A stretch of 64,000 nt of DNA from Rhodoluna sp. (lineage in GTDB: Bacteria > Actinomycetota > Actinomycetes > Actinomycetales > Microbacteriaceae), in assembly GCF_024641065.1 (NCBI RefSeq), contig NZ_JAHEDV010000001.1, positions 372,001 to 436,000 on the forward strand, in the 5' to 3' direction. The notes under the pieces are model-generated. The model made no database searches and had not been told where the DNA came from. It was given only the letters and a program-made list of their open reading frames with translations. Below, one piece after another: positions 30,370-45,435 of this stretch (the stretch's first letter is position 1; each line of letters opens with the position of its first letter). Made by a program: the position numbers and the translations under genes.

Positions 30370-30868
30370 TCAAACAATAGTTTGGCTTCGAGCCCAACCC
30401 GAGCCTCGGCGCACTATGAATCCTTCGAGTTCAAGTGAGCTAAGTGCAATGTGCGCCTCTGAGCGGGTTAATCCCGCTGTGGTGGCGATTTCATTCGATT
30501 CGGGGGCACCGAAACCTATTGCGTCATAAGCTCTGGTTTCAAGAGCACCGAGTTCACGCACCTGCATTCCTATTTCATCTTGGGCTTGACCTGAAATATC
30601 AGTTGAGCCTTCATGACCAAAGAGTCTGCTTTCATTGCTTGCGAAGTATGTTCTGAGGTCTTCTACTCGAATTACCGGTTGGGCAAGTCCATCCCTAATC
30701 AATTGATTGCAACCCACCGACATGGCAGAGGTGATCTGCCCCGGAACTGCAATAACTGTTCGCTCCAGCGCCAGCGCATGCCTTGCCGTGCTCAACGCAC
30801 CTGATCTCCAGTTTGCCTCTACTACTAGAGTGACCGGGCTAAGGGCTGCAATCAGCCGATTTCGCTGC
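30370..30868 (-). pseudogene. dprA: dprA 3' fragment (C-terminal part of DNA-processing protein A)
   Basis: Encodes the end of the Rossmann domain, starting at RNRLIAALSPVTLVVEA, then GALSTARHALAL, AVPGQITSAMSVGCNQLI, and a C-terminal winged-helix domain (ALETRAYDAIGF...NEIATTAGLTRSEA). The N-terminal remainder lies 13.8 kb away (44,643-45,435). The frame continues a few codons into the element to a TTG at 30,876, so a short product could in principle be made, but it lacks most of the nucleotide-binding fold. Joining both halves at GCTGC gives 1,287 bases, exactly 429 codons with stop. Confidence 0.93.
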
Positions 30869-30891
30869 CAGAACAATGAGTAGTATTAGTT
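30864..30891. other. Left attachment junction
   Basis: Host dprA (CGATTTC on the left) joins the element through GCTGC. The element-side arm 30869-30891 is the right half of the reconstructed attP and ends one base before the integrase ATG at 30892. This arm is the reverse complement of the right-junction arm at 18 of 23 positions. Confidence 0.85.
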
Positions 30892-30916
30892 ATGGCCAAA
30901 CCAGTTACTGCAGCAA
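30887..30916 (-). promoter_or_regulatory. Weak candidate outward promoter at the left element end
   Basis: On the minus strand TTGCTG (30911-30916), an 18-base spacer, and TAACTA (30887-30892) face the dprA 3' fragment and xerC. It overlaps the integrase start on the opposite strand. The -10 match is poor, so this is a tentative call; it would explain continued xerC expression after insertion. Confidence 0.25.
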
Positions 30917-32343
30917 TATATTTACGAATTAGCCAAGACCCTCGAGAAGATGGCCTTGCTGTGGAACGTCAAGAAGCGGAATGCAGGGCTATAATCGCGT
31001 CCAAGAATTGGGTTTTAGGTGAAATCTACTCGGATACTGTCAGTGCAAGCAAGAAGAATGTCACCCGCCCTAACTACGAACGAATGCTCCTTGACTTCAA
31101 AAGGGGAAAATTTGTCGCTTTGGTTTGCTGGGACCTAGACCGCCTAACTCGTCAACCCCGTCAACTCGAGGATTGGATTGAAGCTGCTGAAGAGGACGGC
31201 CTTTTGCTCGTAACGGCAAACGGGGAGGCCGACCTCACAAACGATAACGGGCGATTATTCGCTCGAATGAAGGCCATTGTTTCCAAAGCAGAAATGGAAC
31301 GGAAAGGCGCTAGGCAAAAGGCCAAGAATGCCCAACTCGTCTCGGGTGGTTTTCCCGTTCCTGGAAGGCGGCGATGGGGATATGAATCTGATAACAAGAC
31401 TCCTCGCCCCGCAGAAGCAACTCGAGTGCAATACGCTTTTGAACAGGTTGCTCTGGGTAAATCACTGCGGTCAGTTGCGGTTGAATTAGGAGTCAAGCCT
31501 GTCAGGTTGCGCGAATCGCTAACTCATCGCTCATATGTTGGGGAAGTCAAACACTTAGGCGAATTCTTGCCATCGGACAAAATTCAACCGCTAGTTTCTG
31601 AAGAACTTTTTGAACAGGTTCAGGCAATTCTTAGCGATCCGACTAGAAAAACCACACCGGGAAATACTGTTCGACATTTATTGTCGGGGTTGGCAAAATG
31701 CGGCATCTGTGATTCAACAATGTATTACATGAATGGCTATTTGTGTTCTGGAGCCACCAATCACGTTCACATAAAAAAGGAATATTTAGAAAATCTCGTT
31801 GTGCTTTCTATAAAAGATTGGGTGGGCCGAAATCGAACAGCCCCCGACTATGGGGATTCTTCCGATGAACTTGTTCCACTTGTGCAGGAATTGCAGGAAG
31901 TGGAGCGACTACGCGCCGCGAACTACCGATTTGCTGAAGCCGAAGGTGCCGACCTCAAGTACTTAATGAGAAGAATCAAGGAACTTGGGGAGCATGCAAA
32001 TGACTTGGAAAGAAAAATAAGAATGACGCGCGAAATGACCGCAAAATCTTCTCTCCTTGAAGACATGCGTCGTAAGTGGTGGGAGTCAATTGATGCAGCA
32101 GGTTTTGATGAATGGAAGACTTCAATGAATGACGCAGCAGAAAAAATAGGCTTGGAAAACGAAGTTGTCACCGTTGAGCAGTTTATTCATGTCAGGAAAC
32201 TTGACAGGGCTTTCGATTACTGGTTTGAGTATTGGAATGAATTAGATATTTTTCAACAACGCGAGATTGTGAAAGCTCTCATCACAGTGGTGGTGCATAA
32301 AGGACGTGGCCAAGAAAGAATCGAAGTTAAATTCGTCGATTGA
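30892..32343 (+). CDS. Large serine integrase
   Basis: 483 aa site-specific recombinase of the phiC31/Bxb1 class. Resolvase catalytic domain at the N-terminus: AAIYLRISQDP with the nucleophilic Ser14 and Arg12, then CWDLDRLTRQPRQLE with catalytic Arg residues (80-90) and KAEMERKGARQKAK. A recombinase domain (about 155-260, GRRRWGYE...) is followed by a zinc ribbon (C270, C273, C285, probable fourth ligand nearby) and a coiled-coil region (about 330-400). It begins immediately after the attP arm at the left element end, and no Shine-Dalgarno sequence is visible. It catalyses the dprA insertion; excision would need a directionality factor. Confidence 0.95.
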   Translation: MAKPVTAAIYLRISQDPREDGLAVERQEAECRAIIASKNWVLGEIYSDTVSASKKNVTRPNYERMLLDFKRGKFVALVCWDLDRLTRQPRQLEDWIEAAEEDGLLLVTANGEADLTNDNGRLFARMKAIVSKAEMERKGARQKAKNAQLVSGGFPVPGRRRWGYESDNKTPRPAEATRVQYAFEQVALGKSLRSVAVELGVKPVRLRESLTHRSYVGEVKHLGEFLPSDKIQPLVSEELFEQVQAILSDPTRKTTPGNTVRHLLSGLAKCGICDSTMYYMNGYLCSGATNHVHIKKEYLENLVVLSIKDWVGRNRTAPDYGDSSDELVPLVQELQEVERLRAANYRFAEAEGADLKYLMRRIKELGEHANDLERKIRMTREMTAKSSLLEDMRRKWWESIDAAGFDEWKTSMNDAAEKIGLENEVVTVEQFIHVRKLDRAFDYWFEYWNELDIFQQREIVKALITVVVHKGRGQERIEVKFVD

Positions 32344-32380
32344 AGTTCAGAGTTATTGCAGTGAGGGCGCACCTCAATCA

Positions 32381-32782
32381 CTATGAGCACATAGCGCCAA
32401 GAGTTTGATTTGAGCTTTGGAACTCTCCTGCTGCTTTGTCCAAAGCGGCGCTATCTAAATCCAAAAGGCTAGTGCGAAGGGTTTCTGCGACCTCACGCGA
32501 CTTAGCGATCCAATCTTCAAGCGCCGTCCTTAATTGAGCCTCTCGAGGCAGAACACCAGCTTCCATCTCATCAAGTTTCGCTGTCCATAGCTTGATACCC
32601 GAGCGCCTATAGGAGTTGTCAGAAATTTCGGCAGTCGTCGCATTCTGCAGAGCCACGATTTCCTTGATGTAACCACCAACAGCTTCACAGTCTTTGGCAT
32701 TGGCCTTAAAACCCGAACAACCTGACAATCCCAATGTAATTCCCAAGACGGTGACTGCAACTACAGTTTTTCTCAAATTCAT
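32381..32782 (-). CDS. Small lipoprotein (unknown function)
   Basis: 133 aa. A clear lipoprotein signal peptide: MNLRK, a hydrophobic stretch, and the lipobox LSGC with the lipidated Cys at about residue 22. The mature part is mostly helical and Ala/Glu/Leu-rich (LWTAKLDEMEAGVL, LRTSLLDLDSAALDKAAGEF), with two more Cys (CEAV... and the penultimate residue), which could form a disulfide. I do not recognise a family. It is element cargo on the opposite strand to the integrase; a surface or superinfection-related role is conceivable but not shown. Confidence 0.7.
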   Translation of the reverse strand: MNLRKTVVAVTVLGITLGLSGCSGFKANAKDCEAVGGYIKEIVALQNATTAEISDNSYRRSGIKLWTAKLDEMEAGVLPREAQLRTALEDWIAKSREVAETLRTSLLDLDSAALDKAAGEFQSSNQTLGAMCS

Positions 32783-32857
32783 GAACGCTCGCCCCCAAAA
32801 TCAAATCAGGATTCGAGTATAAGTGAGAAGAATATTTAGTTACTTTATGTCTTCAGC

Positions 32858-32950
32858 TTGTACGAAAACGATAATTTTCGGCCATCTGGGTCGGACAGCC
32901 TTGTGGTCTCGCATCTCAAGTTGTCTTTTGTACGAAACCTGTGTACGATT
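32858..32950. repeat. Direct repeats TTGTACGAAA upstream of the small serine recombinase
   Basis: TTGTACGAAA occurs at 32858-32867 and again at 32928-32937, exactly 70 bases apart, and the related GTGTACGATT is at 32941-32950. The first copy runs into a short palindrome CGAAAA-CGATAA-TTTTCG. The set ends 39 bases before the recombinase start. Such spaced repeats are what a resolvase res site or an operator looks like. Confidence 0.55.
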
Positions 32951-32989
32951 GCACTCTACCTAAAGGTATGAGTAACGGACAGGCAGTTA

Positions 32990-33559
32990 TTGAATTCATC
33001 TTCTAAGAAATTTGGATACGCGCGCGTTTCAACCCAAACACAGTCAACTGACAACCAAGAGCAACTTCTAAAGGAATACGGATGCGACAAGCTCTTTGTC
33101 GAGAAATACACTGGCACCAAGTCAGACAGGCCTCAGTTGAACGAGCTAAAGGCACATCTGAGACATGGTGACACTGTTGTAGTAACAAAGCTAGACCGAC
33201 TGGGTCGTAGCACGAAAGATCTCTTACAAATCGTTTCAGACTTCAAGGCGATCGAAGTCAACCTTGTTGTGATGCAGCAGAACATCGACACAACCACTAT
33301 CGAAGGCCGCTTGTTCTTCACACTCATTAGCGCTTTCGCTCAATTCGAAGCCGAAATCATTTCCGCGAGGACCAAGGATGGTTTGGCGGCAGCCAAGGCT
33401 AAGGGCAAGCTCGGAGGCAGACGCTCCGTACTCTCGCCTATGCAAAAATCTCAAGTCGCTGAATTTTACGCACAAGGAAAAACAGTTTCTCAAATCGCGG
33501 AGCTGTTTTCTACCACGCGACAGGTGATCTACCGTTCCCTCGAGAAACAAAGTTCTTGA
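32990..33559 (+). CDS. Small serine recombinase (resolvase/invertase family)
   Basis: 189 aa. Resolvase domain: FGYARVSTQTQ with Arg12 and nucleophilic Ser14, KLDRLGRSTKDLL, TIEGRLFFTLISAFAQFE, and the E-helix region ERAR-like (EAEIISARTKDGL). A C-terminal Hin-type HTH completes it (KTVSQIAELFSTTRQVIYRSL). TTG 32990 is the start, with an AGG 6 bases upstream; a 12-codon ATG frame at 32968 overlaps it. It is distinct from the large integrase and could resolve multimers, invert DNA, or be a remnant of an older insertion. Confidence 0.9.
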   Translation: MNSSSKKFGYARVSTQTQSTDNQEQLLKEYGCDKLFVEKYTGTKSDRPQLNELKAHLRHGDTVVVTKLDRLGRSTKDLLQIVSDFKAIEVNLVVMQQNIDTTTIEGRLFFTLISAFAQFEAEIISARTKDGLAAAKAKGKLGGRRSVLSPMQKSQVAEFYAQGKTVSQIAELFSTTRQVIYRSLEKQSS

Positions 33560-33812
33560 AAGGAGTGCTGTTGGCGCAATCGATTCAATCATCTACCTCG
33601 ATAGAGGTTTGACAGAAATGACGCTGAGTGTTCCGATTTACCGCTGATGAGGATAGAGGCAAAAGTTGCAACGGGCGTCTCGGCAGGAATCAAACCTAAG
33701 ACCAAGACATTAGAAGTCTCGTGGACAAAATCTGTATTGCCTTGTAAACACAAGCATATATTTAGACACAGACTTTTTGTGCAATAGCTATGCAACAGTG
33801 GATTGGTATGAC

Positions 33813-34805
33813 CTACTTTTTATCAGAAAAGCTCTTTAAATATTGGACTGCTGCTTCAGATTGTGCGTTGAAGTGGGTTTGGGATTGCACAAATTTCCAG
33901 ATCACTCTCGGGTACGGATCTCCTCTGCCATCTTCATACATTCCAACGCGGCTGGCGGCTCCGTGTATCTGATAGTTATCCTGTGTCGCTGAAAGTAAAA
34001 AATCTATTTGCTTTTGCGTCAAGCCCTGTTGGAGTCGTAGATGCCTCCAAAGCGAATCCGTAGTCGAAAAGAGATTCGACCGACTAAGTGAGATTAATAG
34101 CGAATCAATAAATCTGGGCTTGAGGTCGGGATCATAAGTTACCCACTCTACGATTTCTTTGATCACCTTTTCGTGCGTTGTCCGTTCAGTAACCGATAGA
34201 GCTTGGTCCTTAGCAACAAAACCGTGTGGCGGCTTCTTGCCGTATTTGAGGGTGAAGTAAGGTACGTCGCGACCAATCAACCAACCAACCTCTTGGTCAC
34301 ACCAAGGGCTGGCACCAAAGCCATCGTGGAAGAAGATTAATCCCCCATGAACTTCGTTTAGGCTTTTGCGAATCTCTTGCTGAAAGTCTGCTGTTGGCCG
34401 AATGGATTCGTGTGCGATAAAAAGTCGAACTCCAAGCAATGAAAGGCTGTCTCCAACCTCTGAAATTACTTTTTTATGCTTCGCGAGGTGCGAGCCAAAC
34501 AAAAACAGAGGCACCACGTCGTCAGCAACGATGCTCTCGTCTCTTTTGAGGTGCCCACCTATCTCCTCAATTCCATCTGCGAGCTTTTGAAGTTGCACCG
34601 GCTGCAACTCATCAAGGATCCTGTATAAGACCTCTTTGCGTTCAGTGTCGGTAGGCGACCAATTGCCATATTCATCGCCGTGCCAAAAGCGCGAATCAAT
34701 TAACTCGGCTTCGATTTCTCTGAGCAATAGATTTATTTCCGCTGCATCAAGTTTTAGGCAGTTCATTCCGATTCGTCGGATGTTCTGAATTCTTTCAATG
34801 TTCAA
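33813..34805 (-). CDS. TIR-domain protein (probable NADase-type defence effector)
   Basis: 330 aa. Residues about 99-200 read as a TIR domain: LFLFGSHLAKHKKVISEV, LLGVRLFIAHESIRPTADFQQEI (given here in parts: GVRLFIAHESIRP, then FQQEIRKSL), then GFGASPWCDQEVGWLIGRDVPYF with Glu172 at the position of the catalytic Glu, and KPPHGFVAKDQAL. Prokaryotic TIR proteins often cleave NAD+ or make cyclic ADP-ribose signals in anti-phage immunity. The N-terminal about 90 and C-terminal about 120 residues are helical and unrecognised, possibly sensor or partner regions. Start TTG 34805, or ATG 34766 as alternative; both lack a strong ribosome-binding site. It is 14 bases after the Type ISP gene, so probably one operon. 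Confidence 0.8.
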   Translation of the reverse strand: MNIERIQNIRRIGMNCLKLDAAEINLLLREIEAELIDSRFWHGDEYGNWSPTDTERKEVLYRILDELQPVQLQKLADGIEEIGGHLKRDESIVADDVVPLFLFGSHLAKHKKVISEVGDSLSLLGVRLFIAHESIRPTADFQQEIRKSLNEVHGGLIFFHDGFGASPWCDQEVGWLIGRDVPYFTLKYGKKPPHGFVAKDQALSVTERTTHEKVIKEIVEWVTYDPDLKPRFIDSLLISLSRSNLFSTTDSLWRHLRLQQGLTQKQIDFLLSATQDNYQIHGAASRVGMYEDGRGDPYPRVIWKFVQSQTHFNAQSEAAVQYLKSFSDKK

Positions 34806-34819
34806 TCGTCATTGCGCTT

Positions 34820-37800
34820 TCAGGAGAATTTTGGGAACTTGGGCATCTGGTCGAGTAACTTCGTAGTTTCCAATGAGACAGTCACTACTTTGGCGAGTAG
34901 CTGGTAAAGGTAGTCCGCACTTCCTGACTCTTTTGCCCAGTCATTCGGGTCGTTAATTAGGCCACTTGCCTTATCGACCGTTATTTTGAACCTCTCAACA
35001 ACCCAATCAACCGCAGACTTCGCACCAATCTTGAAGTCATGGGCTTCCAGAGGTATCCCACGTACTTGCAGGTTGTTATTGAAAACCACTACGGATTTGT
35101 CAATGCTCTTACCAGCCTTGAGATACGAAAGTCTTTCTACCTTGAAGTCGCTTGGATCTAGACCAACTTTTTCTAAAGGATATGGATTGACAACCTCATA
35201 GTCGGCATGGAGTTCACCTAATCTCCTACCCAAATCCACCATCTCTCGGAAAGAATCAAGTATTGGGATTCGGGGCAACATTCGCTTGAAATCGTTTTCA
35301 AACAAAAGCTTATATTCAGGGTGATTGAGAACGGCATAAGTGTAGAAAAACAATTCATCAGCGGTGACTGAATAACCCAAAACCGCTGTGAATTGGGCAA
35401 TGGCGTGCTCAGAAATATTGTCAGGTGAATCATCAGAGAACAGGCTGAAAGCTTCTTGTGGAGACCCATCAAGCTCATCGCCTTTACTGTATCTAGGGAA
35501 AAACTGACTGTTAGTTTGGGCGCCAAACGCGGACATGTCGGGTACAAGTTTTGTCATTAGCGCAGAGAAAGGTACAGCCGCACCTACGCCAGCAAGTACG
35601 AAGCCGATTTGTTGCAAGTGCGGATTTGAGAAATCTCTCTTCAGAATTGCTGGCCGGTGTAGCACCTCAGTGTCACCATAAAGTTTTTGTTTATTGAACG
35701 GGCGATATGCAGCATCGACAACGAGTCCAGTTTTGAAAGAAATTTTCTTGCCGCGTTCGAAATTAGACAAAAGACTTGAGGACCAACTAATTAACTTCGG
35801 ATTCTTTTCTACGAAAACCTCCGGTGCCCCAAGTTTCCCGCTCGCCTCCCAACGTTCAATCTCAGTGTTGTAAGTTTCAAGCATTTTTCGAACTGAAGCA
35901 TTTACCTTTTCACCTGAAAAGTTGTAGACCCACGCATCTCGATTTGTTTGTAGACCAGTGCTGTAAGACTTAAAAATCCCAATTTCATTTGACTTACCTT
36001 TTGCCCCAATAGGTATGAATGATTCGAACACCTCGTTCCTCTGATTAATCCAGTCGCCCGCTTCATTCGGTTTAATGTCAACCCAAGGGATTGACTCCAG
36101 ATTCAAGAATTCTGTCGTTTTCTCTAACTTGTCAGACTTAGTCGCATAATCAGGAAATTCAAAGTACTTGATACTTCCTGAGCCCTTGTGGTTGGCGCGT
36201 TTGACGAGGAAAATTACCGAAACACCCACTCGTATATCGAATATATTCCCACCTTCTCGTCTAGCTGCCTCGCCGGCCATCCTTGAATTTCCTCGATAAT
36301 TAACAACAAAGATGTTTGAGAACTCCTCAACGAGACACTTTCGCAACCCCGAGGCCGTATTGCTATCAATAAAACCATTGTTGGTCACATACGCGATTAG
36401 TCCATCGTCGTTTATTCGATCAGACGCCCAACGAATCGCTCGGATGTATGAGTCATACAGATTGTTCTTGTTTTGGGCGTCTGTTTTCCTTGCGTAAGTT
36501 TCAGTGATGCGAGAATCCAGCGTCGGGTAACTCAAATTTCCATTGGCGTCGTTAGCGGACGTTTGCCCAGCGGAATATGGCGGATTACCAATAATTATCT
36601 GAATAGGCGTCTCTTTTTGCGCCTTTACACGGCCATTATTTTCTGGGAAAACTTCTAGACCGAAAAGTTCATCCGAATCGCCCTTTTCATGCATTTGGAA
36701 AGTGTCAGTCAATACAATTCCATCGAACCCCTCATACTTGCCACCGGCGAGTGCATGGAAAGCCTCTTCGATGTTTATGGCCGCAACATAGTAGGCGAGC
36801 AAAACAATTTCATTTGCATGGAGTTCAGACTTGTACTTTCGAATTAAATCGTCCGGCTTTATGAGCCCAGACTGAAGTAACCGAACAATGAATGTTCCAG
36901 TTCCAGTGAACGGATCAAGTACATGGACGTTCGGGTCGGAAATACCCGATCCAAATTCTGTTTTAAGTAAAAAGTCAGAACCGGAGATAATGAAATCAAC
37001 AATTTCGTTTGGCGTATAAACGATTCCTAGGCGCTCGCTTGTAGCTGAAAAGGCTAACTTGAAGAATCTTTCATAGAGCTCTTTGACGATTTTCTGCTTA
37101 GATGCACCATCGGTAATGCCGCTAGCGCGCAGCCTCACGCTTTCATAAAACTTTTCAAGGTCTTCCGTGTGCTGGTCGAGCTTTGATTTCTCAAGCGCAT
37201 CGACCATTCCTTGCATCGCAACGGATACGGGGTTTTGTTCAGAAAATTGGTAATCCTGAAAAAGTGCATCGAAGACTGGTCTAGTAATCAGGTGTTGCGC
37301 CAACATCTCGATAGCTTCGAGCGCAGTAACGAAAGGGTTCAGGTTATCTTGAAGGCTCTTAACAAATCTCTGAAATTCGTTTTGTAGCTCAGGGTTTGAG
37401 CCATCAACAAGAATGCGAATTCGAGCAATGTGTGCAGTAGCAATTTCAGTCACATCTTTTGCCCAGTTTTCCCAGTAAGTTCGCTCACCGACTTTCTGCA
37501 CAATCTTTGCCAAGATTGCATCTTTCCAGTCTGCGAAGTCGAACTCAAATAGGGGCACTTGACCGCTGTCTTTTGGTTTAGAGTCGCCGTCCCAGTCTCC
37601 TTCGCCGGTGCTTGGGCTTGCGTCGATAATCTCGATTACGCCACCAGTGTCGCCAGTGAGGTCGATCTTGTTCACGAGGGCGTCAAAACGCTCATCGTGA
37701 GCTCGTAAGGCTTGCAAAACTTGCCAGACGACTTTGTAGTTCTTGTTGTCCGCGAGCGCTTCCTCGGCTGATTTGCCGGCTGGTACGGCGATTGGAAGTA

Positions 37801-39562
37801 TGACATAGCCGTATTGTTTGTTATCGGCTTTTCGCATTACGCGTCCTACGGATTGGACGACGTCGACTTGGCTGTCGCGTGGGTTTAAGAATAGGACTGC
37901 GTCTAGGGCTGGCACATCGACGCCTTCTGATAGGCATCTGGCGTTGCTTAGGACTCGTACTGTATTTTCGGTTTTGGTGTCTTTGAGCCAATCGAGGCGT
38001 TCGTTTCTTGCCATTACATTGAATGTGCCGTCAACATGGTCGGCTTCTGCGATTAGTCCGTCTTTTTCTTTGGCTTCGTCGTTTAGGGCTTTGGTGACTG
38101 TTCCGAATAGTTCGGCGATCCTTTTGGAGTCTTTGATTGAGCGTGAGAATGCGACGGCGGTTCTCATCGGTGTTTTGTCGACTAGGAAGTCATCAGGGTT
38201 GGTGCTTCGTTTGCGTAGACCGTTGTAACAGCCAACGATTTTGATTGCGTCTTGGAGTTTGAGTTCGTCTCCGTCGGTGAGAATTTTTTGAAGTGATTTG
38301 CTTACTTGTGTTTCGGACACAGTGAGAACTAGAACTTTGTAATCGCTGAGCAAACCGCGAGATACGGCGTTACCGAAGTTGAGTCGGTGGAACTCTTGGC
38401 CGAACTGTGATTCGTTGTCCATCGACGCTAGGACGGCGGATGCTTCTTCTGCTTTGGCTTTGCTTGCTTCTGCGTAGATACGAGGTGTAGCGGTCATATA
38501 GAGGCGTTTGGAGCCCTTTATGAAGTTGTTGTCGTGTACTCGAACAAAGTTTGATTCGTCGTCGCCGGCGAGAGTCACTCCGGTCGTTCGGTGCGCCTCG
38601 TCACAGATGATCAGATCGAACTCAGGAAGCCCTTTTTTCTGTGCTGCTGCCACGACCTCAATAGATTGATAAGTCGAGAAGATAACCGTAAGGACTGCAT
38701 CAGTCCCCTTGTTGAAGTGCGATGCAAGTTTCTCAACATTTGTGGTCGACGGATAAGCGAGATCCGCGACGCGCGTATCCTCAGAACTCGCCTGCTTACT
38801 CAACTTCGTGTCAGAACAGACTGCATAAGCGCGGAAGTCGGCTGAAGCCTCTCGTTTCCACTCTTTGAGCGTCTGAGACAACAAAGCGAGGGAAGGCACT
38901 AGGAATAGCACTGTTCCGCCCTTGGGCGTCATCTCCTGAACAATCTGAAGCGAAGTGAAAGTCTTACCTGTTCCACAAGCCATAATCATCTTGCCTCGGT
39001 CGGCAGAAGCAAAGTGGGCCTTAGCAGCCTCAATGGCTTCTAACTGGTGAGGAAACGGCGTCTTCTTCTTCAGAAGCCCAATTTTTGAAACATCTTGGAG
39101 ACTGAAACCAGACCAGTCGATACCGGACTCATCCAAATCCTGAACACGAATGATTGTCGTCGGGATTTGCTGACCTTCAACAGCATCGCTAGCGTTTTTT
39201 GACCAGTTATCTGTTGTCGAGAAGATGTAGCGCTCGCGGAATGGTTCTTTTCCAGAAGCGGTGAAGAAGGAGTCGATTTCTTTCTTGTCTAGGTATGCGC
39301 CTTCGGCGTAGAACTTGCATTGGATGGCTGCGATTTCGCCTGTCTCAGGTATGCGAGCAACTAGGTCGATTCCGGTGTCTTGTTTTGAGATGCCGTTCTC
39401 TTTCGCCCAGTCCCCATAAAGCCATACTTTGTCGAAGTAGGTTCGGTAGAACGGGTCGATTTCCAAATATTTCTTTGTCAGCGCTTCAAATAGGTCACCT
39501 TTGTGTCGCTCGTCGAACGCTGACTCACGCAATTCTGCGAGCACATCGTGAATAGACTTCAT
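34820..39562 (-). CDS. Type ISP-like single-polypeptide restriction-modification enzyme
   Basis: 1,580 aa, the length of LlaGI/LlaBIII-type enzymes. Order of domains: Mrr-like PD-(D/E)xK nuclease (DTGIDLV about 62-68, AIQCKF about 79-84) and SF2 helicase/translocase (Walker A ACGTGKT 195-201, DEAH 321-324, motif III TATP, motif VI QSVGRVMRK 570-578). A helical coupler (about 680-830) precedes the adenine N6-methyltransferase (motif I DPFTGTGTF 883-891, motif IV NPPY 993-996) and a target-recognition C-terminus (about 1,150-1,580). All key residues are present, so it is probably active. Start ATG 39562 has AAGGA upstream; the frame reaches 39,595. It both methylates and restricts, translocating along DNA. 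Confidence 0.93.
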   Translation of the reverse strand: MKSIHDVLAELRESAFDERHKGDLFEALTKKYLEIDPFYRTYFDKVWLYGDWAKENGISKQDTGIDLVARIPETGEIAAIQCKFYAEGAYLDKKEIDSFFTASGKEPFRERYIFSTTDNWSKNASDAVEGQQIPTTIIRVQDLDESGIDWSGFSLQDVSKIGLLKKKTPFPHQLEAIEAAKAHFASADRGKMIMACGTGKTFTSLQIVQEMTPKGGTVLFLVPSLALLSQTLKEWKREASADFRAYAVCSDTKLSKQASSEDTRVADLAYPSTTNVEKLASHFNKGTDAVLTVIFSTYQSIEVVAAAQKKGLPEFDLIICDEAHRTTGVTLAGDDESNFVRVHDNNFIKGSKRLYMTATPRIYAEASKAKAEEASAVLASMDNESQFGQEFHRLNFGNAVSRGLLSDYKVLVLTVSETQVSKSLQKILTDGDELKLQDAIKIVGCYNGLRKRSTNPDDFLVDKTPMRTAVAFSRSIKDSKRIAELFGTVTKALNDEAKEKDGLIAEADHVDGTFNVMARNERLDWLKDTKTENTVRVLSNARCLSEGVDVPALDAVLFLNPRDSQVDVVQSVGRVMRKADNKQYGYVILPIAVPAGKSAEEALADNKNYKVVWQVLQALRAHDERFDALVNKIDLTGDTGGVIEIIDASPSTGEGDWDGDSKPKDSGQVPLFEFDFADWKDAILAKIVQKVGERTYWENWAKDVTEIATAHIARIRILVDGSNPELQNEFQRFVKSLQDNLNPFVTALEAIEMLAQHLITRPVFDALFQDYQFSEQNPVSVAMQGMVDALEKSKLDQHTEDLEKFYESVRLRASGITDGASKQKIVKELYERFFKLAFSATSERLGIVYTPNEIVDFIISGSDFLLKTEFGSGISDPNVHVLDPFTGTGTFIVRLLQSGLIKPDDLIRKYKSELHANEIVLLAYYVAAINIEEAFHALAGGKYEGFDGIVLTDTFQMHEKGDSDELFGLEVFPENNGRVKAQKETPIQIIIGNPPYSAGQTSANDANGNLSYPTLDSRITETYARKTDAQNKNNLYDSYIRAIRWASDRINDDGLIAYVTNNGFIDSNTASGLRKCLVEEFSNIFVVNYRGNSRMAGEAARREGGNIFDIRVGVSVIFLVKRANHKGSGSIKYFEFPDYATKSDKLEKTTEFLNLESIPWVDIKPNEAGDWINQRNEVFESFIPIGAKGKSNEIGIFKSYSTGLQTNRDAWVYNFSGEKVNASVRKMLETYNTEIERWEASGKLGAPEVFVEKNPKLISWSSSLLSNFERGKKISFKTGLVVDAAYRPFNKQKLYGDTEVLHRPAILKRDFSNPHLQQIGFVLAGVGAAVPFSALMTKLVPDMSAFGAQTNSQFFPRYSKGDELDGSPQEAFSLFSDDSPDNISEHAIAQFTAVLGYSVTADELFFYTYAVLNHPEYKLLFENDFKRMLPRIPILDSFREMVDLGRRLGELHADYEVVNPYPLEKVGLDPSDFKVERLSYLKAGKSIDKSVVVFNNNLQVRGIPLEAHDFKIGAKSAVDWVVERFKITVDKASGLINDPNDWAKESGSADYLYQLLAKVVTVSLETTKLLDQMPKFPKFS

Positions 39563-39670
39563 CGGTTCATTTCCTTCTTTCCCCACATACTTCAAAAGTC
39601 TAATGAGCGCCTACGACAAGGCTGTGGACAACTCACTAGGTAAGAAACCAAACCACGTAAGAATAAGAGC

Positions 39671-39787
39671 ATGGGAGCAAAATGCGTGACGTGCGGCACA
39701 TTATTCGAAGTTGATTGCGATGTCGAAATAATCCGTTGTGACCTTTGCCCCAGTGAGCCTTGGGGCATCTTGTTTACTTCCCCTTGA
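39671..39787 (+). CDS. Tiny zinc-ribbon-like protein (38 aa, tentative)
   Basis: ATG 39671 to TGA 39787 encodes 38 residues with CVTC near the start and CDLC 14 residues later, the spacing of a zinc ribbon. The ribosome-binding site is weak and the end overlaps the convergent minus-strand gene by 14 bases. The Cys pattern is the only support. Confidence 0.35.
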   Translation: MGAKCVTCGTLFEVDCDVEIIRCDLCPSEPWGILFTSP

Positions 39788-40202
39788 TTTTTCGAGTAGG
39801 TCGCCTAAATGTTTCCTGAGGAAAGTCGGCAACGACAAGGCCGATTCCGCCCATTCGGCCTTCCCAAATTTGACACTCAATGGCGTCAACCCAACATCGC
39901 CGTGTTTCGTTGACCTCATCACACGGAGCACTGGGAAGACATGGGTCAGCTTCCTCTGGAGCGAAGATGGCCTCGGGGTTTTGCACGTAGAGAAACCCAC
40001 CTTCGTTCAAAAGTGACTGGGTGATTTGGATCGACTGATTATTAGAGTCAACTGCCCGTTTCTCGCATGTGTCACAAACTTGGCCAAACCTGAGTGCCCA
40101 GTTGAACATTGGGCTTTGATTGCATATGCCACAGGTCTGCGAGGCGGCTTTTAGTCGCGTGTACCGCTCATACTCCGACTCAAGCACTGTTAGGGCCTCC
40201 AT
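39774..40202 (-). CDS. CxxC zinc-finger protein (unknown function)
   Basis: About 142 aa from ATG 40202 (GGAGG just upstream, spacing short). An N-terminal helix (LTVLESEYERYTRLKAAS) is followed by a treble-clef-like Cys set, CGIC and CDTC 20 residues apart. The rest is mixed, with several further Cys. Family not recognised. The frame is open to 40,265. It overlaps the end of the upstream 130-aa gene by about 20 bases, suggesting coupled expression. Confidence 0.55.
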   Translation of the reverse strand: MEALTVLESEYERYTRLKAASQTCGICNQSPMFNWALRFGQVCDTCEKRAVDSNNQSIQITQSLLNEGGFLYVQNPEAIFAPEEADPCLPSAPCDEVNETRRCWVDAIECQIWEGRMGGIGLVVADFPQETFRRPTRKIKGK

Positions 40203-40572
40203 CGGCCTCCTGTGGCTTCTGGATATATCCTGAGCGGAGACCACTGCTTGCATCAGAATCTTCAACTAGGTGCATTGAAACCCAAACCTCGTGTAGAGCT
40301 TGCGAATACTCAGGGCCCCTCGTTTTGGCCACCTTGGCTTTGAAATTCTCATAATCCAAGTGTTCAATACCGACGTTTAACCAACTCCGAAAATCTTCCC
40401 TACTCACAAATACTCGATAGGGGTAGTCCGCCTTTGGCGACTTCATAATCTCAACATTAGATGTAGCCGCGAGCGCGTCTAGTGCCGCCTTATCGCGTGC
40501 CCTTACGACCAGCCCGTCCTTGTTTCGATTTGAAACCGCGCTTACAAACCCGTCTTGCGTGAAAACCCACAT
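40180..40572 (-). CDS. Conserved hypothetical protein, MW(V/I)FT-type small protein
   Basis: 130 aa. Begins MWVFTQDGFVSAV, with VRARDKAALDAL, DYPYRVFVSREDFRSWL, and YENFKAKVAK...YSQALHEVW. I recall this arrangement from small conserved proteins of unknown function in many bacteria and phages, but no activity is known to me. The ATG at 40572 is close behind the divergent start of the coiled-coil gene, so the 65-bp gap holds both promoters. Upstream partner of the CxxC protein. Confidence 0.7.
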   Translation of the reverse strand: MWVFTQDGFVSAVSNRNKDGLVVRARDKAALDALAATSNVEIMKSPKADYPYRVFVSREDFRSWLNVGIEHLDYENFKAKVAKTRGPEYSQALHEVWVSMHLVEDSDASSGLRSGYIQKPQEADGGPNSA

Positions 40573-40637
40573 ACAAACTCTTTCCTCAGGCTCATTTAAA
40601 CTGTTTTAGAGACGATTTAATTCCTTAAGGGGAGATT

Positions 40638-41666
40638 ATGGACGACAAGGAAGCGGCGAAGGCGGCCAAACGAGAAGCACGTGAAAACGCGGACGCTGCG
40701 AGGAAAGCAAAGTATGAAGCTCGACAAGCTGCACTAAAAGAAAAAATAGCTCTCCAAAAAGAGGTTCACAGGGCAAAAATGGCTGAAATCGATGCCAGAA
40801 GCAAGGCTGTCGATGAGGAGCTCAAGCGAAAGAATGCGGAAACAGTAAAAAACATAAAAACTGCCGCTAAGAACATGAAAGATGCTGTCGGCGAGTTAAA
40901 TGTTGCGCTGGAACAAACGGTGCTCGAAACAAGGCAGGAATTTGCGTCGGCAAAGGCACAATCCGACGAAGAATGGAAGAAAATAAAGTCCGATTTTGCG
41001 GAGATTGGAAATGACTTCAAAGAAGCCGGCCAAATGATTTCGGACTCTTCAAAAGACTTGCTAATCAAAGGTCCCTTGGGTGAGGAAAAACGTAAAGACA
41101 TTCGATCGGCTGCTGGCTCGGATAAAAAACTTGAGAAAACTATGCTTAAGGACGCCAAGAAGCTAGAAAAGGCTCGGGTAGAGGCAGAACGGTTGGAAAA
41201 GTTCGGCAAACGAATTGCGGACGAGTTCTTCTGGACAAGACGAGTGTGCATTTACGAAAAAGGGTACGTATCCGTCCGGTTTCTAACTGGCGGGCCCAAC
41301 TTTGACAAGCCCGAAAAGTTGGTCAGCATTAGCTCAAACTCACAGGTATTCAATAAAAACACATCTTCACTTTTCGAAAAACTTCATGGTGACCTGTACC
41401 TGACCATTGTCACTGCTAGCGACACATATTCGCTTCGCAACCCTCGACCTGACACTGGCGATGTTCGAAGAATGAACAAGCTAGTCGCCACTGGGCAAGC
41501 GGTGATCGGGAGAGATGCACCGCCGCCAAACGCAGATTTGTCGAACAATCCAAGGATTAACACGGAGATTTCGACAGAGCTCAATAAATTGAACGAACTT
41601 CACTCGAGCGGAGTACTGACCGATGCGGAATTCACCGCCGCCAAAGCAAAGATTCTTGGTCTATAG
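40638..41666 (+). CDS. Coiled-coil protein with PH-like middle and SHOCT C-terminus (unknown function)
   Basis: 342 aa. Residues 1-200 are Lys/Glu/Ala-rich coiled coil. About 205-290 form a beta-rich segment (RVCIYEKGYVSVRFL, KLVSISSNSQVFNK, DLYLTIVTASDTYSL) that resembles a bacterial PH-like domain. The last about 28 residues are a SHOCT motif (LNKLNELHSSGVLTDAEFTAAKAKIL), a short helical pair often found at protein ends with oligomerisation roles. A good ribosome-binding site (AAGGGGAG) precedes the ATG. Followed 41 bases later by a 220-aa protein on the same strand; the two look like a pair. Confidence 0.7.
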   Translation: MDDKEAAKAAKREARENADAARKAKYEARQAALKEKIALQKEVHRAKMAEIDARSKAVDEELKRKNAETVKNIKTAAKNMKDAVGELNVALEQTVLETRQEFASAKAQSDEEWKKIKSDFAEIGNDFKEAGQMISDSSKDLLIKGPLGEEKRKDIRSAAGSDKKLEKTMLKDAKKLEKARVEAERLEKFGKRIADEFFWTRRVCIYEKGYVSVRFLTGGPNFDKPEKLVSISSNSQVFNKNTSSLFEKLHGDLYLTIVTASDTYSLRNPRPDTGDVRRMNKLVATGQAVIGRDAPPPNADLSNNPRINTEISTELNKLNELHSSGVLTDAEFTAAKAKILGL

Positions 41667-41707
41667 CTGAACTTCTGTTAACCTCTGTGTCTGCGAAAGA
41701 GGGTTAA

Positions 41708-42370
41708 TTGATACTTAGAAACTTGGTTCCATCTGGTGGGCTCATAGAGTTCAAGGCAAGTTATTCTTTAGCGCAGAACGTCTTAAATGTCTCCTTCTTT
41801 GACCCTGCAACTTGGTGCCAGACCCACTCAATTGCATTGAAGTGCAAGAACGCACTAATGGCTGTTAGATGGCTCTACAAAGCAATAGATGCTGTCTTCG
41901 ATTCCGATGGCTTCACTCCACTTTTGGATGGAAGCTATGCACTAGGGAACGCGGACGGTAACCTCGTTGTACCTATGACCATGACTTTGGCTTCGGAAAT
42001 CGTACTAACGGACGATGTTTATACAATTTGGTTTTCAGGTGCCTACCCGCCATTCGATACGAGACAGTTTTCTTTGGATTTACTTTCAAATAAAACACCA
42101 GTGCTAGCGCCTCCCAAAGGTTTACAGGCAGCGATTGACAAGGCTTTCTCACAAAGTGCTATACCTTGCGATAGCCAGACAGCGTTGTCACTTCTAGAGA
42201 TCGAATACCACCTCAAACAGGGTGCAGAACCGCAAAAGGCCTCAGCCGTTCGGGCTCTTGTGCAACTTTTCGTTTGTGCAGGACTTGGCACAGAGTTGAA
42301 AATAGTTGAAGCGTTGGAGGACCTAGAGCAAGAACTACTGGACTTCTTGAGAAATGACGTCGGAAATTAG
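41708..42370 (+). CDS. Hypothetical protein paired with the coiled-coil/SHOCT protein
   Basis: 220 aa, TTG start at 41708 with GAGG 5 bases upstream. No recognisable domain. Seen: a beta-rich first half (LIEFKASYSLAQNVLNVSFFD) with one W-C, and a helical second half ending in an acidic coil (ELKIVEALEDLEQELLDFL). No signal peptide or membrane segment. Position directly downstream of the SHOCT protein suggests a joint role. Confidence 0.55.
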   Translation: MILRNLVPSGGLIEFKASYSLAQNVLNVSFFDPATWCQTHSIALKCKNALMAVRWLYKAIDAVFDSDGFTPLLDGSYALGNADGNLVVPMTMTLASEIVLTDDVYTIWFSGAYPPFDTRQFSLDLLSNKTPVLAPPKGLQAAIDKAFSQSAIPCDSQTALSLLEIEYHLKQGAEPQKASAVRALVQLFVCAGLGTELKIVEALEDLEQELLDFLRNDVGN

Positions 42371-42514
42371 GTAAAACTCGAAACGATTTTCGGGTAAGTT
42401 CAAATCGCTTCGATGCCATATGTTTGTTGAGTTTGGCTTCAAACCCATTTACAAATGGCTACCATCAGCTTTAACATCATCTGGCAAAATTGGTATCAAT
42501 TCGTCCCCTGCATG

Positions 42515-42559
42515 TCTCCACTTCTCCCCCCTCTATAGGAGGGGGAAGAAGCTGCAGAG
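42515..42559. other. Strong hairpin near the RepA-like gene
   Basis: CTTCT-C-CCCCCTC, loop TATAG, GAGGGGG-A-AGAAG (about 42521-42551), with TCTC...GAGA outside. It lies in the 279-bp gap between the 220-aa gene and the RepA-like ATPase gene, which converge here, so it may be a terminator; a role in replication is also conceivable. There is no long T-run. The remainder of the gap shows no gene I can support. Confidence 0.5.
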
Positions 42560-42649
42560 ACTAGGCGGAAAGCCTGAAGCGTTTGCTGGAACCGCTGATT
42601 GTTTCAATAATTGCACCCTCTGAAACAAGTGCTGCTCGGGCCGCTGTGA

Positions 42650-43990
42650 TCAACGAATTTGCTCCCGTAACCGCAGCCTCAATTTGACTTGCATGCAATT
42701 AGGATTCTTACCCACGAAGTTGCTTACATGGAGTTTCATATTCTCCAAAACGGAGTCAGCCTTGGTTAGACCGGTAAGGGTCAGAGTGATTCCGTCAACT
42801 CCCAGAGTTATCGCTTCCTCTGTGTAGCTCACGTCTCTCCCCTCAGCTCTAAATGTCCTAAGCCTGCCAGCTTCACCCTTGCCGATGAACCACGTTGCAT
42901 CAGGGTGGTCCGCAAGTGTTGACGCACCGCGAGCGCGAGTTCCATCGTGACCTGCATGGACGACGAGCAAATACTCCTCGACGTTTCCTTGTGCAGCAAG
43001 CGAGTCTATGAGGAGAAGGAATTCCTTGACTTCCTCGTTTTCTTTAGCATTCTTTCCAGTGAAGGCACTGGAGAAAGGGTCGATTATAAGAACCTCGATA
43101 TTGTTTTCAAGCAGCTGCGCAACGAAATGCGCACGAGAAGTTGGTGTTCGAAAAGGGTTTGGTAAACCACGCAAATTCCAGACTTTCACGTTGGCGACAT
43201 TTCGAAGCTCTAATTTTCGTATCCAACGCTTGTACTGTGACGGGCTCAACTCAAAATTTATTATGCCCACATTGCGAGTGACAGGTAGCGTATTGAATTT
43301 GCCTAAGAACAGGCCGCCATCAACGAGTGCTTTCAAAACATTGAGAACTAATGTCGTTTTACCTCCCTTGTTGGGTGCAACTATAAAGTTGTTACCACCT
43401 TTGACCCATAGTTCCTCAATACGAAATTGCGCCACTTGATCTGGCTCTTGAAGCCAATCTATGACAGACATTGGTTGAGGAATGGCACCCTCACGCCTAA
43501 AAGATTCTTCGGCCAATTCGAGTTTCGCTAGTTCATCAGCCTTTATTCGAAGAACCTGCCTAGCGGCGAGCGCGACAATATGGTTTCGCTCGTCTGAAAT
43601 AGGCTCACTCAGACCCTCCTCAGCTTTAACGAGGTCTCCTAGGTCCACAAGCCAAGAACGTTTCACGGGGGCATTGTTACTTACCCAAGTGATTGCCGCG
43701 AGTTCGTTACCGCCACAAAGCATGTCTCGAATGAAATCAAATTTATGTATGGGAAACGCGTCATTTCCTCCCTTGACGAATTGAACTTTGTCTCCTTCTT
43801 CATACGTTTTTGGATGGTAAGTTGACTGGATTGTTACTTCTTTCCCCCGAGTTGTTCTGGAGTGTGAGACGACAACAATTCCGTCCACGATTGATTCTCT
43901 AGAGTCCCAAACACCTAAATTGCTCAAGATGTCGTCGATGCTGATCTGTTTGGCAGCGTCAAAGTGACTGCCTAAGTTGTTATACGCCAT
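42650..43990 (-). CDS. RepA-like AAA+ ATPase (hexameric helicase fold)
   Basis: 446 aa from ATG 43990, which has GGAGG 5 bases upstream; the frame extends to 44,080. The middle holds a RecA-type fold of the RepA/AAA_25 type: Walker A APNKGGKT (205-212), a strand NVGIINFELSP, Walker B EVLIIDPF (299-306), and the sensor-like LLVVHAGHDGTRARGASTLADH. It resembles plasmid RepA and phage/satellite replicative ATPases. The first about 180 residues are unrecognised. This implies that the element can, or once could, replicate autonomously. No obvious iterons were found. Confidence 0.8.
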   Translation of the reverse strand: MAYNNLGSHFDAAKQISIDDILSNLGVWDSRESIVDGIVVVSHSRTTRGKEVTIQSTYHPKTYEEGDKVQFVKGGNDAFPIHKFDFIRDMLCGGNELAAITWVSNNAPVKRSWLVDLGDLVKAEEGLSEPISDERNHIVALAARQVLRIKADELAKLELAEESFRREGAIPQPMSVIDWLQEPDQVAQFRIEELWVKGGNNFIVAPNKGGKTTLVLNVLKALVDGGLFLGKFNTLPVTRNVGIINFELSPSQYKRWIRKLELRNVANVKVWNLRGLPNPFRTPTSRAHFVAQLLENNIEVLIIDPFSSAFTGKNAKENEEVKEFLLLIDSLAAQGNVEEYLLVVHAGHDGTRARGASTLADHPDATWFIGKGEAGRLRTFRAEGRDVSYTEEAITLGVDGITLTLTGLTKADSVLENMKLHVSNFVGKNPNCMQVKLRLRLREQIR

Positions 43991-44214
43991 TGCGGCCTCC
44001 GAATTTAAAGTGAATAAATTTATGGAGGGCGCTTCTCCGAGGGATCTCCCTGCGCAGTCCGTTGGAATTACCTTCGCCACATAATGTGGCTGCCTTTGCG
44101 GTAAGGCATATCTGCTCCCTGTCAGGGTTCGAGCTTGCAGTTAGCTCAGTCTTACGACTACGAAGGTCTGGGCCTGATTTAACAGGTAGTCACCATGTCT
44201 TCGCGTTTTGCGAA

Positions 44215-44385
44215 CTAGTCGCGTCTTTTCAATAGCCAATCCTTAAGGTCCGACTCAGAAACTCGAAAGTGTCGTCCGACTCGCAAAGTGTGCGGGCCAG
44301 TACCTTCTTTCTTGAAGAGATAGAGAGTGCTGATTGGTACCTTCAACATTTCCGCTATTTCCGTGTAGCTGTAGTGCTTTTCCAT
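44215..44385 (-). CDS. Excisionase-like HTH protein (AlpA/MerR-type)
   Basis: 56 aa from ATG 44385 with AGGAG 4 bases upstream; the frame reaches 44,415. One winged HTH: YSYTEIAEMLKVPISTLYLFKKEG, read here as YTEIAEMLKVPISTLY, then RVGRHFRVSESDLKDWLLKR. This is the fold of excisionases and AlpA-like regulators. Position next to the right att junction and the serine integrase at the other end makes it a candidate directionality factor or integrase regulator in the circular form. Confidence 0.82.
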   Translation of the reverse strand: MEKHYSYTEIAEMLKVPISTLYLFKKEGTGPHTLRVGRHFRVSESDLKDWLLKRRD

Positions 44386-44620
44386 GAGACTCCTAGGTTT
44401 CGTTCCTAAGTCCATTTTGAAGCAGTTAGAAATGGGTGATTTTTGTATTTGGGGTCCAACTCAGCTATCCCCTTGATATAGAGAGGGATAGTTTGTTTCG
44501 AAACTGATTTGGCATTTGAGGGGCGCGTCCTCGGGCTTTAGGCCATGCGCAGATAGTTAGAGACTACGCACCATCTTGCAGAAAAGAGGTTGATGTTCGC
44601 CCTAGGCAAAAAACTAGATG

Positions 44621-44647
44621 AACTGATACAAATCATTATTTTGCTGC
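44621..44647. other. Right attachment junction
   Basis: The element arm 44621-44643 joins GCTGC (44643-44647), followed by host dprA (AGAAATCG). With 30869-30891 it forms a 50-bp attP: two 23-bp arms (18 of 23 complementary) around CTGC, centred on TG. Confidence 0.85.
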
Positions 44648-45435
44648 AGAAATCGCCATTTGGTAGGTGCCGTGCCTGGTGGCATTTCACTGATGACTAA
44701 TCCCTCCATAGAAATTCTATGTAGAAGTTCAGAATGAGCCGAGGGATAAAAACGATCAACTCCACCTGCCATTACAGCGATGGTTTTACCTTGCGTTGCT
44801 AGAGCAATGCTGTGAGCTCGACCGTCGACTCCAAGTGCGCCGCCTGAAACTACGATGAGGCCCATCGCTGTCGCAGCAGCAACAAACTCGGCGGTCACTT
44901 CGCGCCCGTAGGCAGAGATGGCTCGAGAACCAACAACAGCTATGGATGAATTAAGTCGTTCTAGGTTTGCAACTTTTCCCCTGCACCAAAGAACCATTGG
45001 AGAATGAACTCCCAGATCGAAAAGCTGAGCCGGCCAAAAGGTAGAGACCGGAGAAACTGTTGAGCCTCCGAGACCCCTGACTAGCTCGAGTGTTGCCGAC
45101 AACTCCGCAAGCGACTTGCGGCTCCCCCACCGCTCCAGACCATCTGCATACGCTTTTTGAAACTCTTCTTCGCCGATAAATTCGATGTTGGGTTCACAGT
45201 TTGGCTCCAACGCTTGGTAAACCTCCTGCGCAGAAGCACCGTTAAGAATAAGCTCTAAGGCCTTATCAGAGCCGAGCGATTGCACTAGAAAACCGGCAAG
45301 CCCATCACCGGGCTCACACATAAGACTCCACGCAAGATAAGCAAAATGTTGAGAGAGCCTCTCTGGTTCGACACCGGGGCTAATTCCTTCTAGAAATGAA
45401 CTAATTTGCTCGGTCGATATCTTCAAGTCAGCCAT
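44643..45435 (-). pseudogene. dprA: dprA 5' fragment (N-terminal part of DNA-processing protein A)
   Basis: ATG 45435 (GGAG 6 bases upstream, right after the comM stop) through the element junction; the frame then reads about nine foreign codons and stops at TAG 44614-44616. Seen: N-terminal helical domain, then the Rossmann fold with SSIAVVGSRAISAYG, IVVSGGALGVDGRAH, MAGGVDRFYPSAHSELL and ISEMPPGTAPTKWRFLQ. It lacks the last third of the Rossmann core and the winged helix, so single-stranded-DNA and RecA loading should be lost. About 264 of 428 codons. Confidence 0.93.

Follow-up and report, generated by a model that had tools for sequence, protein, structure and literature searches.

We report here that, in a draft genome of Rhodoluna sp., the natural transformation gene dprA is split by a 13.8-kb island carrying a large serine integrase, and that relatives of this integrase have settled repeatedly in transformation genes, namely dprA (two sites), comM (two sites), tadA, and tadC or the adjoining pilin gene. 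The island lies in a stretch of 64,000 nucleotides of contig NZ_JAHEDV010000001.1 (positions 372,001 to 436,000), referred to below as the window, and all coordinates of the Rhodoluna locus are those of the window. We consider it probable that the island and its relatives are mobile elements whose integration puts natural transformation out of action, probably as a way to escape curing. Their recurrence in dprA, comM, and tad genes suggests that such elements disarm DNA uptake for self-protection.

An earlier note on this DNA, made from the sequence alone, had proposed that dprA is cleanly split by a 13.8-kb serine-integrase element and can be restored in frame over 1,287 bases, and our analysis bears out both proposals. 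In a profile search of the whole genome assembly (1.43 Mb in 33 contigs, approximately 91% complete), the sole matches to PF02481 were two pieces of dprA located 13.8 kb apart on one 440-kb contig (Table 1). Together these pieces make up one DNA_processg_A domain, with a DprA_WH domain (PF17782) after the second piece. The 5' open reading frame (ORF) opens at 45435 on the minus strand and ends inside the element at a stop codon (44614-44616). The 3' ORF occupies 30370-30876 on the same strand, and the second piece of dprA begins QRNRLIAALSP. Computed excision of 13,779 bp at the GCTGC core gives an open frame of 428 amino acids plus stop, corresponding to 1,287 nt, and integrase domains were found in the excised element. 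The junction falls inside a conserved motif of the joined DprA, WRFLQRNRLIAA from residue 260 onward, compared with KFHFPARNRIIAG in 3uqz. When compared with the PDB, the joined protein aligns with Streptococcus pneumoniae DprA (3uqz) over residues 144-329. The cut after residue 263 lies inside this aligned stretch, so that neither DprA piece is a complete domain.

The GCTGC shared by the two junctions also stands, but its placement has shifted from 30,863/44,648 in the earlier note to a core at 30864-30868 and 44643-44647. By itself a 5-mer core is trivial; its position in the motif, the attP repeat, and the recurrence of the split in seven other genera raise it above chance. Once rebuilt, attP shows an imperfect inverted repeat with the core at its centre, in which 18 of 25 arm positions match; 2,400 random positions gave 6.8 matches on average (s.d. 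2.4, maximum 16). No tRNA or other Rfam RNA target was found at the element junctions, the sole match in the window being a tRNA-His at 1042.

The observation that the neighbouring comM is intact was upheld (527 amino acids with full Mg_chelatase domains), and the genome also contains comEC and a TadE-like gene. With dprA split and these other uptake genes present, transformation is likely to be off in the host while the element is integrated. A contiguous dprA had been expected in relatives lacking the element; accordingly, dprA was matched in 61 of the 66 other genomes of the genus, and none of these 61 is split at this site. Their dprA genes reach approximately 50% protein identity at best and thus provide no near-isogenic empty site. 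No close relative of the window integrase was found in the other listed genus members of the family sample described below; among these listed members of the genus, the window's own genome alone had a match at E 1e-20 or better.

The same codon of dprA is split in other Microbacteriaceae. The window integrase served as query against 398 family genomes, of which 64 gave a match at E 1e-20 or better. Among the 30 integrase loci returned, part of dprA adjoins the integrase in seven besides the Rhodoluna locus itself, with the 3' half beside the integrase in six and the 5' half in one (G415). These seven genomes represent seven genera, and their dprA halves are 8.5-18.2 kb apart and parted at the same residue (WRFL|QRNR). 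Including the window host, dprA is therefore cut at this codon in at least 8 of 398 family genomes from eight genera, and in each of the eight the join yields WRFLQRNR within an open frame. The eight cores have in common the dinucleotide CA, read in the dprA sense (TG on the plus strand), which fits the 2-bp crossover of a serine integrase, and the attP arms match at 11-18 of 25 positions across all eight elements. Identities of 32-44% between the seven other integrases and that of the window indicate a diverged family rather than one recent spread. Among the hosts of these eight elements, comEC is kept in all and a TadE-like gene in seven. Counting all positions, dprA is split in at least 12 of the 398 genomes, at this site in eight and elsewhere in four. 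This survey covered the best places listed, with a renewed search of the 71 genomes that had two or more, weak, or no matches, so that 12 is a lower bound.

A wider sample of one genome per species (84,980 species), scanned with two peptide patterns derived from the integrase alignment, yielded 45 loci. In 13 of these, one or both dprA halves parted at the WRFL|QRNR position adjoin the integrase; the genera are Naasia, Frigoribacterium (two loci), Curtobacterium, Arthrobacter (three), Glutamicibacter, Mycetocola, Microbacterium, and Agromyces (two), besides one short contig of a metagenome-assembled genome (MAG). Four of the 13 (L097, L102, L104, and L110) are genomes already counted in the family sample, and the phylum labels of L100 and L112, both short MAG contigs, may be wrong. 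Wherever both halves are present, the join is in frame (14 of 14, that is, the eight family cases together with L101, L103, L105, L106, L107, and L111); the join of L106, in frame in the register of the others with a shared AA, is less firm than the remaining 13. The Curtobacterium sequence reads WRFLA, and its shared core is different. In the WRFLA loci (L101 and L158), we observed GCC or GC as the shared core instead, and the crossover dinucleotide thus seems to follow the host codon. The same dprA junction is also present in several IMG/VR contigs, and a single-protein search of IMG/VR returned no close relative of the window integrase.

Integrases of this family are also located in other genes of the pathway. 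In 10 of the 45 loci, the integrase has entered the 3' end of comM, flanked on one side by RGYDRxLR (exact or closely similar) and on the other by VAW or a variant of it. The dprA behind the comM insertion is whole in seven of these ten, only partly covered by the L119 locus, not covered by that of L122, and cut in L134. In L121, the integrase lies in the middle of comM. The comM 3' class gains four further rows in the integrase tree (L060, L163, L188, and L208). A cut tadA abuts the integrase in eight loci according to tblastn, with the Pfam T2SSE domain found in the three tested (L047, L113, and L209), and for two loci from Geodermatophilus both tadA pieces are present, separated by 10.5 and 8.0 kb. 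Five loci, all labelled tadC, have the insertion at the 3' end of tadC or in the flp-like pilin gene behind it. In L038, L053, and L126, the insertion is at the tadC 3' end before the small flp-like pilin gene, and in L037 it appears to lie inside that gene; for these four, the tadC label was assigned by position and by reading of the translation, not by Pfam. L130 contains the 5' part of tadC (Pfam T2SSF). A 'tadE/F' label for four loci was dropped because the insertions are upstream of tadE. Finally, a second dprA site, RSGSxNTAG|HAA, is occupied in two more Microbacteriaceae genomes (G363 and G193), in which related integrases adjoin the dprA 3' half and the halves are 32 and 60 kb apart.

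Some loci show further disruptions of dprA. G160 and G370 have dprA cut at two additional positions, and the halves are separated by 24 kb and 9.6 kb, respectively; these were kept out of the family tally because their recombinases were not identified. The L134 locus, from Microbacterium sp. SMR1, has an element in the comM 3' end, and the match to the dprA that follows likewise breaks off at WRFL, with the 3' half of this dprA outside the locus, so that two elements seem to be present in one locus. Directly behind an apparently whole dprA, L220 (G184) has incomplete pieces of a second dprA (query residues 127-218 and 293-411), which may be a scar or an element-borne copy.

An integrase tree of 99 rows, 97 of which differ (L122 is identical to L188, and L051 to L161), places these targets in relation to one another. 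Near-duplicates were left out, as were L042, L061, and L137 with fewer than 330 readable integrase residues, and four rows at contig ends carry no label. The 95 rows with readable flanks comprise 24 at the dprA site, 2 at the second dprA site, 14 at the comM 3' end, 1 in the middle of comM, 9 in tadA, 5 in tadC or the pilin gene, and 40 with another or no recognised target; the targets of these 40 are identified in part, with Pfam applied to 14. Rows in dprA, comM, tadA, and tadC thus amount to 55 of 95, or 31 of 71 when the 24 dprA-site rows are set aside. The 45 loci found by integrase sequence alone divide into 13 dprA, 11 comM, 6 tadA, 2 tadC, 12 other, and 1 without a full integrase. Target labels cluster on the tree, requiring 17 changes compared with 48.8 when shuffled, and none of 200 shuffles was as low. 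On this tree, tadA requires six changes, four of them forced by starred branches, and tadC five, three of them forced, indicating that retargeting into the pathway was repeated. As a control, we examined hflX in 396 family genomes and found 377 full-length genes, 3 partial, 12 below the cut-off, and 4 without a match. All three partial cases are drafts of 80-190 contigs. The hflX genes were judged by eye from the best E-values, because additional matches to paralogous GTPases make the counts too high.

Because DprA hands the single strands that enter the cell on to RecA, poor transformation would be expected of a host with a cut dprA. A mechanism consistent with these findings can be outlined. 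The large serine integrase of the island would recognise the conserved dprA stretch comprising codons W-R-F-L-Q-R-N-R as attB. Integration cuts DprA inside the Rossmann domain, and the host would lose DprA and with it the delivery of single strands to RecA. Excision by the integrase and a directionality factor would rebuild dprA exactly. As long as the host is non-transformable, homologous recombination with element-free DNA from outside could not rid it of the element, and it would take up fewer competing elements. Avoidance of curing and of competitors is the most likely reason for the targeting.

To our knowledge, few species of Actinomycetota are known to be transformable; two of these, Rhodoluna lacicola and Aurantimicrobium photophilum, are members of the Microbacteriaceae. 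Both are naturally transformable, taking up linear DNA and recombining it (PMC11577799). Micrococcus luteus needs the Tad/Flp pilus for transformation, which was lost on deletion of genes in the two tad clusters, with the exception of tadB, and on deletion of comEC; a DprA orthologue is present (PMC4322843). Earlier work by Croucher et al. (2016) had described insertions of mobile genetic elements in comYC, comFA, comK, comM, radC, and comEC, with a model in which the elements gain since transformation can cure integrated elements (PMC4774983), and later pneumococcal work adds ssbB and regulatory sites as targets (PMC12637031). As in Croucher et al., an integrase targets one site in a transformation gene, the orthologous site is used across genera, and one integrase family can enter different transformation genes (PMC4774983). 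By criteria of the type used there, the insertion reported here lies within the coding sequence of a transformation gene, and homologous integrases occupy the orthologous site in other species. By contrast with that study, the targets here are dprA, comM, tadA, and tadC, the enzymes are large serine recombinases, and the hosts are Actinomycetota. In PMC4774983, dprA has just two mentions, both in reference titles. In open-licence PMC papers, going by listings and excerpts, we found no earlier account of elements that integrate into dprA, tadA, or tadC.

The comK gene of Listeria monocytogenes is restored precisely on excision of its prophage, which excises for the benefit of the host during infection. 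This prophage is likewise an insertion in a competence gene (PMC4774983), but DprA acts on imported DNA rather than regulating competence, and excision of the island is predicted from sequence. SpyCIM1 in mutL of Streptococcus pyogenes inactivates a gene of DNA metabolism when integrated and restores it on excision, as the island is predicted to do, but the gene and the host are different and growth-phase excision has been reported for SpyCIM1 (PMC4689407).

The observed pattern could also be explained in other ways. Passive site choice, in which any conserved, dispensable coding sequence serves as attB and loss of transformation is an unselected side effect, is in our judgement unlikely. The location of attB on highly conserved codons is as expected from it, as is the presence of some family members in or beside unrelated genes. 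However, a single functional pathway accounts for 55 of 95 readable flanks, and for 31 of 71 without the seeded dprA site; different branches occupy two positions in dprA, two in comM, several in tadA, and at least one in tadC; and the conserved control gene hflX is free of such splitting. We give still less credence to the reading put forward in the earlier note, a reversible competence switch ('active lysogeny' similar to that of Listeria comK), in which dprA would be rebuilt by cued excision and disrupted again by reintegration. No finding shows excision or ties the element to host regulation, entry of the same integrase family into other genes of the pathway is unexplained by a dprA-specific switch, and transient restoration of the disrupted gene could permit transformation, to the disadvantage of a prophage (PMC12637031). 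In favour of a switch, in-frame restorability is exact in all 14 computed joins, an integrase and an HTH_17 protein are retained, and the other tested uptake genes are present. The family-wide pattern fits an anti-transformation strategy of the elements better than a competence switch of the host.

It is equally improbable that the island is stranded, with an immobile element and a decaying dprA pseudogene: although the Rhodoluna genome is the sole one of its genus found with dprA cut here and evidence of excision is absent, no damage is apparent in the integrase, in the two att arms, or in either half of dprA, and the joined frame is broken in none of the 14 cases. An assembly artefact or chimera, for which one could cite the draft state of the genome in 33 contigs, is scarcely credible, because the element is located inside the 440-kb contig, its G+C content is below that of the flanks used (46.9% vs 51.1%), and the same junction is present in other genera, including the single-contig genome G387.

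Several points weigh against the interpretation that these elements target transformation. The competence of the window host is presumed, and a TadE-like gene was not found in G415. Tad pili also serve adhesion, a ComM protein short of its last ~35 residues may still work, and dprA, being conserved and dispensable, could be a neutral safe target. The integrase family is not exclusive to transformation genes, as insertions were found at the 3' end of ychF (L128 by Pfam, L132 by reading) and at a luciferase-like monooxygenase gene (L190 by Pfam, L199 by reading), among other genes. The search alignment was built from dprA-site integrases, so that the dprA share is biased upward and 31 of 71 is the fairer figure; outside the dprA site, 40 of 71 rows are not in dprA, comM, or tad genes. 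The ninth tadA row, L123, was assigned by an 11-residue motif alone, and the count without it is 54 of 95. Moreover, tadC comprises five rows that do not cluster on the tree, the tree itself is a quick one with 24 open forks, and the control consists of one gene, hflX, in which splits near the gene ends would escape.

Taking these points together with the recurrence in dprA, comM, and tad genes, we lean slightly towards the broader proposition that a large actinobacterial family of serine integrases has been selected to target the transformation apparatus, moving among dprA, comM, tadA, and tadC several times. If this is true, mobile elements across Actinomycetota commonly face transformation as a threat that is costly in evolutionary terms, and the integration sites that they prefer can be read from genomes as a sign of the genes and lineages that take part in transformation. 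The conflict of such elements with transformation would extend to Actinomycetota, to another enzyme class, and to the targets dprA, tadA, and tadC, and evolution would have provided independent evidence that dprA, comM, and the Tad/Flp pilus belong to one pathway in this phylum that is used in nature. The proposition is directly testable in naturally transformable freshwater relatives, for example, Rhodoluna lacicola.

Table 1. Features of the interrupted dprA locus and of the island in the window
Feature	Coordinates	Strand	Description
dprA 3' part	30370..30868	-	From core (Q264), RNRLIAAL, to stop; PF02481 profile 145-210 and PF17782
Core GCTGC, left junction (integrase side)	30864..30868		Repeat at both ends
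Large serine integrase, 483 aa	30892..32343	+	Resolvase PF00239 (E 7e-27), Recombinase PF07508 (E 2e-5)
133-aa ORF	32381..32782	-	Without Pfam family; lipoprotein-like start by reading of the sequence
Small resolvase/invertase-type serine recombinase, 189 aa	32990..33559	+	Pfam
TIR_2-domain protein, 330 aa	33813..34805	-	Pfam, 28.3 bits (cut-off 28)
Type ISP single-chain restriction-modification enzyme, 1,591 aa	34820..39595	-	Pfam Type_ISP_C, ISP_coupler, Mrr_cat_2, ResIII, N6_Mtase
130-aa ORF	40180..40572	-	Pfam scan, function not assigned
SHOCT-domain protein, 342 aa	40638..41666	+	Pfam
220-aa ORF	41708..42370	+	Pfam scan, function not assigned
AAA_25 ATPase, 476 aa	42650..44080	-	Pfam
HTH_17 protein, 66 aa	44215..44415	-	Pfam; at the end opposite the integrase
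Core GCTGC, right junction	44643..44647		Repeat at both ends
dprA 5' part	44643..45435	-	Residues 1-263 (ends GTAPTKWRFL) and core encoding Q264; PF02481 profile 10-149 of 212
comM (Mg-chelatase family AAA+)	45437..47020	-	Directly upstream of dprA; intact, 527 aa, full Mg_chelatase domains (Pfam)

The gene content of the island is listed in Table 1. Ten of its ORFs were scanned with Pfam. The integrase is of the large serine recombinase (phiC31/Bxb1) type, with Resolvase and Recombinase domains in one large protein, and a match to the zinc ribbon PF13408 scored 22.3 bits, under the cut-off of 25.3. The HTH_17 protein is a candidate excisionase or directionality factor, or alternatively a regulator, as judged from its domain and position. 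The AAA_25 ATPase is presumably RepA-like. The Type ISP enzyme was also recognised by PADLOC (REase_MTase_IIG, E=0), whereas the TIR_2 protein had no PADLOC match. We observed that the TIR gene lies directly downstream of the Type ISP gene on the same strand (33813-39595), and the two possibly form one defence unit. Neither Pfam nor PADLOC recognised phage structural, packaging, or capsid-interference genes in the ten ORFs scanned, which do not include a 163-aa ORF at 39774-40265, and no PHROGs scan of the window was made. We also considered classification as an actinomycete integrative and conjugative element, which we take to be defined by an FtsK/TraB-type transfer protein and, as a rule, a tyrosine integrase. 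The integrase of the island is of the serine type and no FtsK/TraB domain was found in the ten scanned ORFs, and this classification was rejected. The anti-phage islands of Vibrio cholerae known as PLE (phage-inducible chromosomal island-like elements) are, similarly to the island, chromosomal defence islands moved by a large serine recombinase (PMC6002521), but a helper phage is not known for the window island.

The elements of the family as a whole comprise islands of 8-14 kb, several with restriction-type cargo, prophages of 17-18 kb, and two elements of 32 and 60 kb. Where cargo was recognised in the dprA-inserted elements, it differs from one to another, with an N6-methyltransferase (G090), an Eco57I-type methyltransferase (G404), and a GmrSD-type protein (G307); the tested ORFs of the G348 and G334 elements had no Pfam match. 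The elements of G415 (L092/L093) and G387 (L095/L096) are dprA-inserted prophages of 17-18 kb, with terminase, portal, capsid, and tape-measure genes in G415 and portal and capsid genes in G387. In size they are comparable to small actinophages (17-18 kb vs 14-17 kb), and the G387 capsid is related to those of Arthrobacter phage BlueFeather and Rhodococcus phage RRH1, with approximately 32% identity to BlueFeather over 92% of the query. The window island differs from these small actinophages in having no recognised structural gene among its ten scanned ORFs. Both the G090 and G404 elements (~9 kb) contain a phage major head protein, phrog_283 (L088:5132-6019 and L091:9436-10326), which in G090 is 41.5% identical to that of Arthrobacter phage Warda. 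These ~9-kb dprA-inserted elements, in which few other ORFs were scanned, could be capsid-forming or capsid-interfering phage satellites. In G307, an ORF at L090:8210-9115 resembles a head protein by appearance.

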